A DNA stretch of 53,108 bases from a virus: IMG/VR virus record IMGVR_UViG_3300031975_000697, positions 1 to 53,108 of that record, one strand, 5' to 3'. Shown here one piece after another: positions 16,617-53,108 of the stretch. The translations under genes were made by a program, and so were the position numbers. The notes beneath the pieces were generated by a model. That model did not search any database and was not told where the DNA came from. It saw only the letters and a program-made list of their open reading frames with translations. The first letter of the stretch is position 1. Every line of letters starts with the position of its first letter.

Positions 16617-16629
16617 CTTGACACCGAAC
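16617..16629 (+). promoter_or_regulatory. Stoperator (CTTGACACCGAAC)
   Basis: A perfect site seven bases after the major tail stop codon and six bases before a strong hairpin, oriented with transcription. Confidence 0.8.
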
Positions 16630-26700: not shown

Positions 26701-26746
26701 GTTGTGTACGGAGTTGCCCTAAGCAGTGATTCTCCGGTACACTTCG
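26701..26746 (+). other. Candidate attP
   Basis: An imperfect inverted repeat, GTGTACGGAG (26704-26713) and CTCCGGTACAC (26732-26742), is centred near 26723. It lies immediately upstream of the serine integrase, where attP sits in related phages. Each arm carries GTAC, and the span of about 40-46 bp suits a serine-integrase attP. The crossover dinucleotide cannot be fixed without the host junctions. Confidence 0.5.
26714..26743 (+). promoter_or_regulatory. Candidate integrase promoter
   Basis: TTGCCC (26714-26719), 18-bp spacer, TACACT (26738-26743). The predicted start of transcription falls at or next to the integrase ATG at 26750, giving a leaderless message. It overlaps the candidate attP. 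Confidence 0.45.
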
Positions 26747-26749
26747 TAC

Positions 26750-28249
26750 ATGAGCACTGTGAGAGCTGTTATCGGCGCCCGAGTGTCGTATGTACAAGGT
26801 ACCGAGAAGACGTCGCACGAGACGCAGAGGACCAAAGGAGCCGCCTACGCGGAGTCCCAGGGATGGGAGGTCGTGGGATCGTTCGAGGACCTCGACGTGT
26901 CCGCGATCAAGCTCTCGCCGTGGGACCGCCCCGACCTGAAGTCGTGGCTCACCGACCGCACCGACGAGTGGGACGCTCTGATCTTCGCCAAGACCGACCG
27001 TGTGTTCCGGTCGGCGTCGGACTGCGTAAGCCTCGCGGAGTGGTGCCGGCAGCAGGGCAAGATCCTGGTGCTCGTCGATGACGGGATCAAGCTCGACTAC
27101 TTCCACCCCGAGGACGCGAAGGACGCGTTCGCCGGGGCTATGTCCAAGGTGTTCCTGATCTTGGCATCGGTGTTCGCCGAGATCGAGGGGCAGCGGTTCG
27201 TGCAGCGGGCACGGGACCGGGTGGCTTACCTCCGGAACACGGACAGGTGGGGCTACGGCATCCCGCCGTTCGGCTTCCAGGTCGTCGACCACCCGAGCGG
27301 GAATGGCAAAGCCCTGGATCACGATCTGGGAGCGCAGAAGGTGCTCCACGGCGTAGCAGACCAGCTCATAGCAGGAGGCTCGCTGACGGGGATCGTGGCG
27401 GATCTGAACGAGGCCGGCACGCTCAGCCCGCAGGACTGGAACAGAGCTCGATCCGGGAAGCCCACGAGAGGCTCTCAGTGGACCGTGGACAAGCTGAAAG
27501 CGATCCTCCGGAACCCGAGCACCCAAGGGATCAAGACGGCCAACGGGAAGCCCGTCCTCGACGACGAAGGGGAGGCGGTACGGGTGGGTCCACCGTCGTT
27601 CGACCCGGAGACGTGGTCTCGTATCCAGTCCGAGATGGACCAGAGGTCACAAGATCCTCGGAAGCGTAGGCACTCGACTAACCCGCTCCTCGGAGTGGCC
27701 AAGTGCGGAGTGTGCGGGAAGAACATGCGCCAGCGGTCGCAGACCACGCCGGCAGGGGTAACCCACCGCTACTACCTCTGCGGGAACTCGCCGAAGGCGT
27801 GCCCAGGTGTGTCGATGGTCGCGGACGACGCGGAGACCCTCGTTGCCGAGACGTTCCTGGAGGGCCACGCGGAGCGCCGGGTGAAGATCAGGGTATGGCA
27901 GCAGGGCTCGGACCACTCGGCCGAGTTGGAGCAGACGAACCAGACGATCGAGTCGCTGCGCGAGGACCGGGCTCTCGGCCTGTTCTCGACACCGGAGGAC
28001 GAGCAGATGTTCCGGTCGCAGATGGCGGCGCTCATCGCCAAGCGCGACTCTCTGTCGGACAAGCCCGTAGTGAGGGCTGGTTGGGCCGAGATCGAGTCGG
28101 ATCAGACGTACGGGGACATGTGGCCAGAAGCGACTCCGGAGGAGCGCAGAACGATGCTGATCGACGCGGGCGTACGGCTGGAGATCACCAGGCCGAATCG
28201 GTGGGACCTGCACGCCGACTACGACAAGCTCCTCGGCTCCTACGCATAG
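26750..28249 (+). CDS. int: Serine integrase (large serine recombinase)
   Basis: 499 aa from the ATG at 26750; a GTG at 26726 in frame would add eight residues. The catalytic domain has VIGARVS (nucleophile S13), KTDRVFRS and the long helix AFAEIEGQRFVQRARD-type region. A recombinase domain (about 150-280) follows. The zinc ribbon has CGVCGKNMRQRS and YYLCGNSPKACPG. A coiled-coil (about 390-440) ends the protein. It integrates the prophage by recombining attP with attB. No Shine-Dalgarno is visible at 26750, which fits leaderless translation. Similar in plan to Bxb1 integrase but clearly different in sequence. Confidence 0.95.
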   Translation: MSTVRAVIGARVSYVQGTEKTSHETQRTKGAAYAESQGWEVVGSFEDLDVSAIKLSPWDRPDLKSWLTDRTDEWDALIFAKTDRVFRSASDCVSLAEWCRQQGKILVLVDDGIKLDYFHPEDAKDAFAGAMSKVFLILASVFAEIEGQRFVQRARDRVAYLRNTDRWGYGIPPFGFQVVDHPSGNGKALDHDLGAQKVLHGVADQLIAGGSLTGIVADLNEAGTLSPQDWNRARSGKPTRGSQWTVDKLKAILRNPSTQGIKTANGKPVLDDEGEAVRVGPPSFDPETWSRIQSEMDQRSQDPRKRRHSTNPLLGVAKCGVCGKNMRQRSQTTPAGVTHRYYLCGNSPKACPGVSMVADDAETLVAETFLEGHAERRVKIRVWQQGSDHSAELEQTNQTIESLREDRALGLFSTPEDEQMFRSQMAALIAKRDSLSDKPVVRAGWAEIESDQTYGDMWPEATPEERRTMLIDAGVRLEITRPNRWDLHADYDKLLGSYA

Positions 28250-38449: not shown

Positions 38450-38724
38450 GCTGCCTCCTTCAGGTACGCCGCCTTGGCGTATTCGCCTCCGCAGTACATG
38501 ATCTGGTCCTGCTCGTCCCAATTCTCGACCCGCATCGGCTTCTCGTGAGGGAACAGATCCGGTGCGACCTGCGCCCGGTACATCTCAGACCGAGCAGCTC
38601 CGTTGAAGCCTCCGTCGAAGATGTTGTCGAGCGGGCCCCCGTCGCCGCCGTCAGCGGAGTCCCAGGTCTTGCTCTCGTAGAGATGCTGCTGGATCTCCAG
38701 CTCGTCTAAGTGATCGTCGATCAC
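38446..38724 (-). CDS. Hypothetical acidic protein upstream of RNR
   Basis: 92 aa, GTG start at 38724 overlapping the upstream stop (GTGA). Acidic ([16 protein letters not shown]) with a Gly-rich middle and ending [11 protein letters not shown]. Its stop overlaps the RNR start, so it is translated just before it; a link to RNR function is possible but unproven. Confidence 0.7.
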
Positions 38725-39428
38725 CTGTAACCCCCTGTTGAGTAGCGGTCGAAGTTGACGGCCTCGTCGTAGTCGAAGCTGTACTCGTCGCCCTCTTCCG
38801 GAGCGCCCCCGTACTGGGCCTGAGAGATCGCCTGAGCCTCTGCTCGGGTGAGTACGGTGCGAGTGCCTGGACCGTCGTCACGTTCGACGTAGCGCCGCTT
38901 GTTGGACTTGTTCATCTCGTTCGTCAGCTCGGTAAGAGCATCCGAGAGGCGCTTCTTGTCAGCTCCCGAAGAGGGGTAGGCCAGATCTGCGTAGCGGCTA
39001 ACGATGGAATCGACGTAGCGCTGGTTCCGCTTCCACATGGCCTCCAGGCCCTCCATGAGGTCGAACACCGCGTCGTAGAACCCGTCCACCGGTTCGATCA
39101 GGACACCGCGCTTCAGCAGCGACTTGACCTCGTCGACTCCGTAGCGGTAGCTGCCCTTGTAGTAGTCGTAGTCGGTTCGCTCCTGGCTGGCGATCTGGTG
39201 CCCGATGCCGACTATGGCGCGGTACTGAGGACGGTCCTCCATCTGGGAGACCTTCACCAGCGACCCCGGACGCTCCCAGAGGTGCGTGGCGATCGACTGC
39301 TCGACGTCGTCCTCCTCGACGACCCCCGGCCACTGGAAGGCGACGGAACGCGCCGCCCTCCGGATGGTCGGATAGAGGTCTTGGAGGATCGGCTCCAGCT
39401 CCTCGTAGCTGTACTCGTTCGTTGTCAA
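38721..39428 (-). CDS. Sigma-factor-like DNA-binding protein
   Basis: 235 aa. TTG start at 39428 with GGGAGG eight bases upstream; the TTG is part of a stoperator. The N-terminal half (EPILQDLYPTIRRAARSVAF, then VEEDDVEQSIATHLWE) resembles sigma-70 region 2. The middle has a charged helix-rich segment, and the tail is Tyr/Asp-rich. Related cluster A proteins are of uncertain function. A role in transcription is inferred only. Confidence 0.6.
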   Translation of the reverse strand: MTTNEYSYEELEPILQDLYPTIRRAARSVAFQWPGVVEEDDVEQSIATHLWERPGSLVKVSQMEDRPQYRAIVGIGHQIASQERTDYDYYKGSYRYGVDEVKSLLKRGVLIEPVDGFYDAVFDLMEGLEAMWKRNQRYVDSIVSRYADLAYPSSGADKKRLSDALTELTNEMNKSNKRRYVERDDGPGTRTVLTRAEAQAISQAQYGGAPEEGDEYSFDYDEAVNFDRYSTGGYR

Positions 39429-44806: not shown

Positions 44807-44819
44807 GTTCGGTGTCAAG
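44807..44819 (-). promoter_or_regulatory. Stoperator (CTTGACACCGAAC)
   Basis: Perfect site upstream of the phosphoribosyltransferase; it contains the TGA of the small gene at 44815-44940. Confidence 0.8.
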
Positions 44820-45746: not shown

Positions 45747-45893
45747 TCACCAACCGACCCTTCCGATGCGGTCTACGCGGTCCGGGCGCTCCAGGTCCGC
45801 TACGCGGCGCGTGAGCGCGTCCACCAGGCGCTCCAGCCGTGCGATCCGCTGTTCGGTGTCAAGTCTCGTGGGGGGGTTGTAGATCTGCTTCAC
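45747..45893 (-). CDS. Small coiled-coil protein with intragenic stoperator
   Basis: 48 aa, GTG start at 45893: MKQIYNPPTRLDTEQRIARL, then leucine-heptad helix (LERLVDALTRRVADLERP). The codons for RLDTEQ are the stoperator. It ends right before the helicase ATG. No family recognised. Confidence 0.6.
   Translation of the reverse strand: MKQIYNPPTRLDTEQRIARLERLVDALTRRVADLERPDRVDRIGRVGW
45851..45863 (-). promoter_or_regulatory. Stoperator inside a gene (CTTGACACCGAAC)
   Basis: Perfect site within the small coiled-coil gene, read as Leu-Asp-Thr-Glu. Confidence 0.8.
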
Positions 45894-46927: not shown

Positions 46928-47209
46928 TCAGCTCCGTTCGGTGTCAAGTTTGTAGCCGGCGTCGATGGCGCGCTTCGCGATGCGCCTTTGGTTGAGCTTC
47001 GTGGATGAGGACAAGGCGTTGTACGCGGGATACAAGATTCGGGCCAGCTCCTCGACCGCTTGCTCGTCGGCGTCTATCCTTCCGAATCTGTTCTTGATGA
47101 CCTTGCCGTTCTCGATGATTACATCGGCCCTTTGCTCGTCGTCGTTGAACAGGTACTTCCTGTCCTCCACGTTGACGATCAATCCTTCGCTGACATTTAC
47201 AGGGCTCAT
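46928..47209 (-). CDS. Hypothetical protein with intragenic stoperator
   Basis: 93 aa: MSPVNVSEGLIVNVEDRKYL, then a basic C-terminal helix (KLNQRRIAKRAIDAGYKLD). The final codons (KLDTER) are the stoperator 46936-46948. GAAGGTAGAG lies upstream of the ATG. Confidence 0.65.
   Translation of the reverse strand: MSPVNVSEGLIVNVEDRKYLFNDDEQRADVIIENGKVIKNRFGRIDADEQAVEELARILYPAYNALSSSTKLNQRRIAKRAIDAGYKLDTERS
46936..46948 (-). promoter_or_regulatory. Stoperator inside a gene (CTTGACACCGAAC)
   Basis: Perfect site forming the last codons of the gene at 46928-47209, read as Leu-Asp-Thr-Glu. Confidence 0.8.
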
Positions 47210-47238: not shown

Positions 47239-48069
47239 TCAACCCACGGCGAACTCGCACGAGGCGTTCACGTCGCAGAAGTTGCATTTGTCCGGTTCCG
47301 GGTCCGGTGGGAACTCCTCGGCCTCCAGGTGCCTCTCCAGCTCCAGGAACTCAGCGGTCACCGCTTCCTCGGTCCACTCGGTGAGATCGTATGGGAAAGT
47401 GGGCTTTCCGGGCTTTCCCTTCTTCCCAGCCATGAAGTAGTCGCCCTTCTCGACCTTCACTCCGAACATGAGCCAGATGGCTAGGGCGTACACGCCGAGC
47501 TGGAAGTCGTCACCAGGGTCGTTGCCGGTCTTGTAGTCCCGGACTCGGACCTCCCACACTCCCGGTGATACCTCTACCTCGACGACGAGGTCGATGTAGC
47601 CCCGAACGGGTATGCCTCCCAAGTTGATCGAGAAGTAGAGCTCGATGGCCGGCGTGCCTTCGGGCGTGACCCACACGCGTTCGTTCGGGTGGTTGACCGC
47701 CCAGTTGATGAGCTTCTCGACCTGCTCCAGGCCGATCTCGTAGCGGCGCTCGGTGTCCTCGAAACCTCCGTAAGGCCCAGACTTGAACCAGAACTGCCAG
47801 TTCGGTGTCACCTTGCAGAATCCGTTGGTGTACTTCTGGAATGCTTCCCGGAAGATGTCTTGCGTCTCTTCCAGCGTGAGTTTCCTCGCGGACTTCTCCC
47901 AAGCCTCCAGCGCCTCGTGGACGGCACTCCCCTGCGGCAGCCACGCTGCCGGCCTCTTCCACACCTTGTCGATGCGGGACAACTTGTACTGATACGGGCA
48001 GCGGTTGTACTGGTTGATCTGGGAAACGCTGCGGTACTTAGGCTTTGAACCTGAACCGAACTCTGCCAT
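47239..48069 (-). CDS. Cas4-like exonuclease (PD-(D/E)XK)
   Basis: 276 aa. N-terminal SVSQINQYNRCPYQYKL (C24), GSAVHEALE with catalytic H, GYIDLVVEVEV, then VRDYKTG as the D-x-K site. The C-terminus has CNFCDVNASC (C262, C265, C271), which with C24 would bind an iron-sulfur cluster. Such phage Cas4/RecB-like nucleases process DNA ends for recombination. There is no CRISPR array in this window. Confidence 0.88.
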   Translation of the reverse strand: MAEFGSGSKPKYRSVSQINQYNRCPYQYKLSRIDKVWKRPAAWLPQGSAVHEALEAWEKSARKLTLEETQDIFREAFQKYTNGFCKVTPNWQFWFKSGPYGGFEDTERRYEIGLEQVEKLINWAVNHPNERVWVTPEGTPAIELYFSINLGGIPVRGYIDLVVEVEVSPGVWEVRVRDYKTGNDPGDDFQLGVYALAIWLMFGVKVEKGDYFMAGKKGKPGKPTFPYDLTEWTEEAVTAEFLELERHLEAEEFPPDPEPDKCNFCDVNASCEFAVG

Positions 48070-48389: not shown

Positions 48390-48507
48390 TTACGGCTCTA
48401 CCGGAGGAAACCTCCAGTAAACCCGTCCCTCTGGAGTGAGGGTGGTGTGTTCGTTAACGCGAATGAGAAGGTCGCCGTCTGACTTACGACGCTTACGAAA
48501 AGCGAAG
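48390..48507 (-). pseudogene. Out-of-frame C-terminal part of the repressor
   Basis: In the frame next to the repressor this segment reads GGFAFRKRRKSDGDLLIRVN then EHTTLTPEGRVYWRFPPVEP and stops at 48390. It is protein-like and, as recalled, resembles the L5-type repressor C-terminus. Removing one G from the 7-G run (48508-48514) would join it to the upstream part and give a 168-aa protein. Confidence 0.75.
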
Positions 48508-48897
48508 CCCCCCCTTGTTGGAAACCCCCTCGATGGGTGGAATATTGGGGTCGTATTCCACCACCAGATTCTCCTCCCGGAGCTTCTGGTAGAACGCTCG
48601 AAGCCTTCTGAGCTTGTCTTCCGACATGCCCACCCCACCAGTTGCGACGTACTCGCCGTGGTCGCGCATACGGCGGTAAGGAGACGACTGGCCCTGTTCC
48701 GCTGACACCTTCCAAGGAAAGTGCTTGTGCACCATCTGACGTGGCGTCATGCGTCCCCCGTAAGTGTGGATAATCCATGAAACGTACTGGCGCGTAACAC
48801 CGTACATGTCAGCGATCTCCGACTGGGAGAATCCTTTGCCTTTCAAGTCCTCGACGATGGCAAGGGTCAACTTCTTCGGCTTCGTGCTCATATTCAT
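48493..48897 (-). CDS. Immunity repressor (truncated by frameshift)
   Basis: 134 aa as read. A helix-turn-helix near the N-terminus (VEDLKGKGFSQSEIADMYGV, then TRQYVSWIIHTYGG) is followed by the conserved core SPYRRMRDHGEYVATGG and EFDPNIPP-like VVEYDPNIPPIEGV. This matches the L5/Bxb1 repressor family, which binds stoperators as a monomer. After SNKGG the frame runs into LRFS-stop at a 7-G run. The lost end lies in the neighbouring frame. The ATG at 48897 (another two codons later) follows GGAGG and a good promoter. Confidence 0.88.
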   Translation of the reverse strand: MNMSTKPKKLTLAIVEDLKGKGFSQSEIADMYGVTRQYVSWIIHTYGGRMTPRQMVHKHFPWKVSAEQGQSSPYRRMRDHGEYVATGGVGMSEDKLRRLRAFYQKLREENLVVEYDPNIPPIEGVSNKGGLRFS

Positions 48898-52084: not shown

Positions 52085-52097
52085 GTTCGGTGTCAAG
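52085..52097 (-). promoter_or_regulatory. Stoperator (CTTGACACCGAAC)
   Basis: Perfect site just upstream of the first leftward gene. No -10 box at 17-18 bp, so a stoperator, not a promoter. Confidence 0.8.
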
Positions 52098-52110
52098 TCT
52101 TGCTGCGTAC

Positions 52111-52184
52111 GTGGGTAGCCGAGAATCGAACTCGGTAGCTTGCGCCAGAGGCCGGCGATCGTTCCATCGCGCCATGCCTACCCT
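52111..52184 (-). other. tRNA-like element, probably degenerate
   Basis: The - strand has a perfect T-arm (CCGAG, loop TTCGATT, CTCGG) and GGGTAG/CTACCC arms about 71 bases apart, the span of a tRNA. The anticodon arm pairs only four bases (CGCC/GGCG) with loop GGCCTCT, which lacks U33, and no regular D-arm is found. A decayed tRNA or a tRNA mimic; not called as a functional tRNA. Confidence 0.4.
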
Positions 52185-52512: not shown

Positions 52513-52542
52513 ACCCTACCCGAACTGTCGTTCGGTGTCAAG
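52513..52542 (-). promoter_or_regulatory. Early leftward promoter 1 with operator
   Basis: TTGACA (52541-52536), 17-bp spacer, TAGGGT (52518-52513). The stoperator CTTGACACCGAAC (52542-52530) covers the -35 box. Confidence 0.75.
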
Positions 52543-52919: not shown

Positions 52920-52949
52920 ACACTACACGGCGCCCCGTTCGGTGTCAAG
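52920..52949 (-). promoter_or_regulatory. Early leftward promoter 4 with operator
   Basis: TTGACA (52948-52943), 17-bp spacer, TAGTGT (52925-52920). The stoperator CTTGACACCGAAC (52949-52937) covers the -35 box. Outermost of the four. Confidence 0.8.
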
Positions 52950-53108
52950 CCCGGCTGCACACTGCCCCCCCCCCTGTGCAGGTGGGTGGGCCTGCCGGCC
53001 CCCTCCCCCTGGCCCCTAGGTGGGGCGCCCCTCCCCCGCCTCCTGCCGTGCGGGCACCGGCCCGCCTGCCCCCTGCTGCCCTGCCCTCGCTCCGGGTGGG
53101 TGCGCTGC
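52950..53108. other. Right genome end, C-rich, non-coding
   Basis: Strong strand bias: long C runs on + (ten C at 52965-52974) and G runs on -. A hairpin CTGCAC/GTGCAG (52955-52960/52976-52981) holds the C10 run in its loop. Several closely spaced G runs on the - strand could form G-quadruplexes. Near the presumed cohesive end. Confidence 0.6.

Follow-up and report, generated by a model that had tools for sequence, protein, structure and literature searches.

A single-base frame break in an L5-type immunity repressor gene suggests a repressor-defective derivative of a temperate actinophage

We analyzed the DNA of a mycobacterial virus, 53,108 nucleotides long (IMG/VR record IMGVR_UViG_3300031975_000697; this whole stretch is referred to as the window) in which an immunity repressor gene loses its reading frame at a run of seven G. 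The best explanation, which we consider reasonably likely, is that the window carries a recent +1 G slippage allele, and that the phage derives from a temperate one but has a defective repressor and probably forms clear plaques. The parts of the broken gene are listed below.

48493-48897, minus strand: immunity repressor ORF as found, 134 aa, comprising the HTH and the segment of the Stoperator domain that contacts DNA; premature stop (TAA) at 48493-48495
48508-48514, minus strand: G7 run at which the frame is lost (seven C on the plus strand), spanning the codons for a Gly-Gly pair that is invariant in the family
48390-48506, minus strand: detached conserved C-terminal tail in the next frame, 38 codons plus stop

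Past the G7 run the repressor frame reads CTT CGC TTT TCG (LRFS) and then TAA, so that the frame stops four codons after the run, as had been noted in a preliminary description of the sequence; the lengths given there (134 aa as found, 168 aa with the frame restored) and its coordinates were also correct. The frame is lost at residues 128-130. The same description had seen a conserved end continuing in the next frame, and this was borne out: FAFRKRRKSDGDLLIRVNEHTTLTPEGRVYWRFPPVEP is encoded in the second frame after the run, with its stop at 48390-48392. When the repressors of four relatives were searched against the window by tblastn, each gave two HSPs in different frames that meet at the G7 run; the HSPs of the MyraDee repressor had 76% identity (E=4e-66) and 62% identity (E=7e-18). 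Judged from these alignments, the switch of frame exactly at the G7 run reflects homology to a single protein and not chance. The read-through protein matched phrog_357 over positions 4-168 (E=2.5e-82), and the truncated frame matched it at 1e-64, reaching only position 135 of 170.

The gene is a Cluster A/L5-type immunity repressor. Its 134-aa frame, with an N-terminal HTH and the Stoperator DNA-binding motif, matched 7r6r_A in phmmer (E=3.5e-37), and its best solved match, 7R6R/7TZ1, is the crystal structure of a Cluster A2 immunity repressor. The AlphaFold model of the read-through protein had a mean pLDDT of 89, with 7R6R as its sole significant structural match in Foldseek (E=8e-19, TM 0.72, 52% identity). 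The domain order is the same as in the Cluster A repressors of the L5/Bxb1/TipsytheTRex type (phrog_357, 7R6R/7TZ1), and as in that family the gene adjoins a Cas4-like exonuclease in a genome with asymmetric 13-bp sites across it. Unlike the family, the window gene loses the frame before the last 38 residues; the LLIRVNE...IWRFP tail of Cluster A repressors is missing from the repressor frame and present in the next one.

The integrase, the neighboring exonuclease and representative stoperator-like sites are as follows.

26726-28249, plus strand: intact serine integrase, 507 aa, with Resolvase, Recombinase and zinc beta ribbon domains
47239-48069, minus strand: intact Cas4/RecB-like exonuclease adjoining the repressor, gene order as in relatives
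44807-44819, plus strand: stoperator-like site GTTCGGTGTCAAG
45851-45863, plus strand: stoperator-like site GTTCGGTGTCAAG
46936-46948, plus strand: stoperator-like site GTTCGGTGTCAAG
52085-52097, plus strand: stoperator-like site GTTCGGTGTCAAG
52530-52542, plus strand: stoperator-like site GTTCGGTGTCAAG
52937-52949, plus strand: right-most stoperator-like site, putative operator near the right end
16617-16629, minus strand: left-arm stoperator-like site, in the opposite orientation

The window holds 18 such asymmetric sites that differ from GTTCGGTGTCAAG at no more than one position, and the reversed control gave 0. The commonest repeat of MyraDee, GTTCGATGTCAAG, is one letter off GTTCGGTGTCAAG. 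With its serine integrase undamaged and 18 or more stoperator-like sites retained, the phage is of temperate origin. The earlier statement that the repressor break decides whether the phage is temperate is fair for the sequence as given, but the integrase and the sites show its temperate descent. The window start (TGCG...GTACGGG) is very similar to that of four isolate genomes from the group, and the window is probably a complete Cluster A-type actinophage isolate genome, finished end to end. The serine integrase is on the plus strand in the window vs. the minus strand in MyraDee, Stasia, AvatarAhPeg and Sheen; the integration cassette appears to be inverted or replaced relative to those four genomes. 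At about 52108-52183 on the minus strand there is a tRNA-like stretch with a good T-arm, perhaps a decayed tRNA, which was called by neither ARAGORN nor Rfam.

Comparison with relatives, a check of the kind proposed in the preliminary description, indicated that the intact repressors examined read through the break point. All 12 relatives first sampled read through it. Among 96 loci from viral contigs and host genomes, 93 were unbroken and the three exceptions were broken elsewhere in the gene. In GenBank, 80% or more of the read-through protein was matched at a single place by 1061 of 1082 repressor-bearing phage records, and the 40-residue tail was matched by 1029 phage records (at a looser E-value). 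None of the intact family members examined ended at the window's break point, and no near-identical repressor end was found in a scan of IMG/VR, a set from which the very nearest records may be missing. ACFishhook, with two genes annotated under the match, turned out to have an ordinary full-length repressor. The three exceptions are natural broken repressors: L035:701-1189 and L110:862-1362 have in-frame stops (L110 also looks degenerate), and L117:253-745 (Nocardia thailandica) is frameshifted at about residue 60.

Relative to the frame of these relatives, the window has an extra G within the G run. At the Gly-Gly site the run was 2-5 G long in 91 of 92 scored relatives and six in one. The repressor of a metagenomic relative (L048:477-968) is intact and carries an in-frame run of six G at these Gly-Gly codons, evidence that runs of this kind exist at the site. 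The window contains 3 G/C runs of seven or more bases vs. about 10 expected under a first-order Markov model; the G7 run by itself is unremarkable for such a genome, which if anything has fewer long G/C runs than expected.

These counts bear on two other causes put forward in the preliminary description, a phase-variable switch and ribosomal frameshifting, neither of which gained support. Reversible phase variation, in which the run would switch frames at a high rate and be selected as an on/off switch of lysogeny, could draw on the slippage of M. smegmatis in G/C runs, where mismatch repair is reported not to correct frameshifts (PMC10159617), and a back-mutation would restore the repressor frame. 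However, the relatives lack a conserved long tract, and seven bases are short for a contingency tract in a genome depleted, if anything, in long G/C runs; we consider this explanation very unlikely. We give equally little credence to the broader proposal that the Cluster A Gly-Gly codons are a slippage hot spot at which some lineages drift to six or seven G and gain a reversible lysogeny switch; if true, it would give populations mixed for temperate and lytic forms. Recoding, by which ribosomal or transcriptional slippage would make some full-length repressor from the G7 gene, is still less probable. Seven G is a plausible slippery run, but the ribosome would have to shift by +1 (or -2) and not by the usual -1, and the relatives, in one frame, need no shift and conserve no slippery tract. 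No stimulatory structure was evident either, the RNA structure around the site being no better than that of shuffles (z -0.76), and tRNA-Trp is the only tRNA encoded by the phage.

The main rival of a slippage allele is a homopolymer miscount, that is, an intact repressor in the true phage and one G too many in the deposited consensus. We regard this as possible, though rather unlikely. A G run is a classic place for a miscount, this one is the longest among the genes checked, and the sequencing platform may have been one prone to homopolymer errors; the intact six-G repressor of the related contig L048 also fits an error of this kind. The detached tail is informative here. When five relatives were compared, the tail, read in the frame that encodes it, was similar to the rest of the gene in residue divergence and third-position bias (0.58 for the tail versus 0.56 for the rest in the MyraDee comparison), and no decay was seen. 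Since it diverges like the rest of the gene, the tail was under selection until recently, and since it is undecayed, the break is either recent or not real; the lack of any decay is therefore also what a miscount would give.

On the other side, the repressor was the only true frame break in the window when about 250 annotated CDS of MyraDee, Stasia, AvatarAhPeg and Sheen were compared, and the 6-base G/C runs in conserved genes (e.g., HNH, terminase, minor tail) keep the frame. A sequence with many errors is therefore unlikely, but this says little about a single miscount at the G7 run. The genome appears finished end to end, and a random error would have to strike the one gene whose loss is favored by clear-plaque picking. 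Nothing specific on homopolymer sequencing errors in phages came out of a literature search. We infer that the base call is correct and that the break is recent. Annotated CDS were used in the comparison because an all-ORF survey produced many antisense shadow hits. The sigma-K/DNA-binding gene at 38476-39386 was a candidate second break vs. Stasia, Sheen and AvatarAhPeg and was rejected, as MyraDee shares the two-gene arrangement; the gene is in two parts in the window and in MyraDee and a single long gene in Stasia and Sheen. The longest homopolymer of the genome, a ten-C run at 52965-52974, lies just right of the last stoperator-like site and is the best place to judge sequencing quality.

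We also mapped the break onto the solved structure. With a chain offset of 20 to 7R6R, checked on R45, W50, K81 and R108, it falls close to residue 139 in the TipsytheTRex repressor. The 134-aa product keeps every residue known from 7R6R to contact DNA, and the lost segment falls within the TipsytheTRex 128-181 region, which makes no DNA contact and for which a location close to the RNAP beta-prime insert was proposed (PMC9283540). A truncated protein that still binds stoperators, with its function kept or altered by loss of an acidic tail proposed to face RNA polymerase, would fit this location, and the core of the 134-aa form is still confidently modeled by AlphaFold, weak evidence that says little on stability. 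We nevertheless find a functional truncation highly improbable. The tail holds the invariant residues D140, R146, N148, T151 and G157, and an escape mutant selected in Bxb1, phiTM45, carries the nonsense mutation Q138*, equivalent to window residue 137. Owing to these invariant residues and to the laboratory mutants, loss of function is expected, and the 134-aa product most likely fails as a repressor.

Single-G insertions of this kind have been obtained in the laboratory. The escape mutants phiTM42, phiTM46 and phiTM47 each carry a +1 G in rep (PMC6550527 Table 1, Mavrich and Hatfull), and when placed on the parent sequences all three insertions fall at top-strand G runs of 4-5. Gladiator G135 corresponds to window residue 124 and RedRock R149 to residue 136, which bracket the window break; two +1 G mutants and one nonsense mutation lie within about 7 residues of it. 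phiTM42 was described as obligately lytic and carries additional large changes, and the products of phiTM46 and phiTM47 were presumed inactive by the authors (PMC6550527). The phiTM mutants were selected on lysogens or cloned-repressor strains and can be compared with their parents, whereas the window stands by itself. D29, MissWhite and Jeffabunny are natural isolates with temperate parents that have lost the repressor; in these phages rep was deleted wholly or in part, whereas the window differs by one base. It was reported previously that clear-plaque and escape mutants of the group are commonly repressor deletions, truncations or frameshifts (PMC9283540), and a paper on Rhodococcus phages states that repressor loss in Cluster A is not uncommon and may be selected for when plaques are picked (PMC13313380).

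Slippage of the required type has also been measured in M. smegmatis. With a 6C run, sucrose-resistant cells arose at 1 in 10,000 and 15% of these had +1 in the run (PMC10159617); by our arithmetic this gives a +1 rate of ~1.5e-5, a host-chromosome figure from which the phage polymerase may differ. In a 5G reporter, +1 in the run accounted for 67% of the sequenced kanamycin-resistant isolates (PMC10159617). If the sequence is right, the slippage allele is probably ordinary in kind, the same sort having already been seen in the laboratory. With the laboratory precedents and the M. smegmatis data, a clear-plaque mutation is the best supported of the four causes listed in the preliminary description, the phenotype itself being a prediction.

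According to the proposed mechanism, replication slippage in the G run would recently have added one G to an L5-type repressor gene, with the invariant Gly-Gly pair encoded by the run acting as a built-in weak point. Translation would yield the 134-aa product, keeping the HTH and the DNA-contacting Stoperator part and missing the last 38 residues, about a fifth of the protein. Failure of this repressor would leave the early lytic promoters and stoperator-controlled transcription active; no lysogens would form and plaques would be clear. With its binding sites and integrase kept, the phage is still expected to respond to an intact cognate repressor made by a prophage. Since the operators are still present, a clear mutant is expected, and not an operator-type virulent one.

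For annotation, the slippage allele would settle the choice between a temperate phage and a repressor-defective derivative of one. A truncation in the one part of the protein that is free of DNA contacts in the crystal structure could, together with phiTM45 and phiTM47, help to test the role of the tail. The gene may also illustrate how, at high GC content, the codons of an invariant Gly-Gly pair can render a gene prone to slippage.
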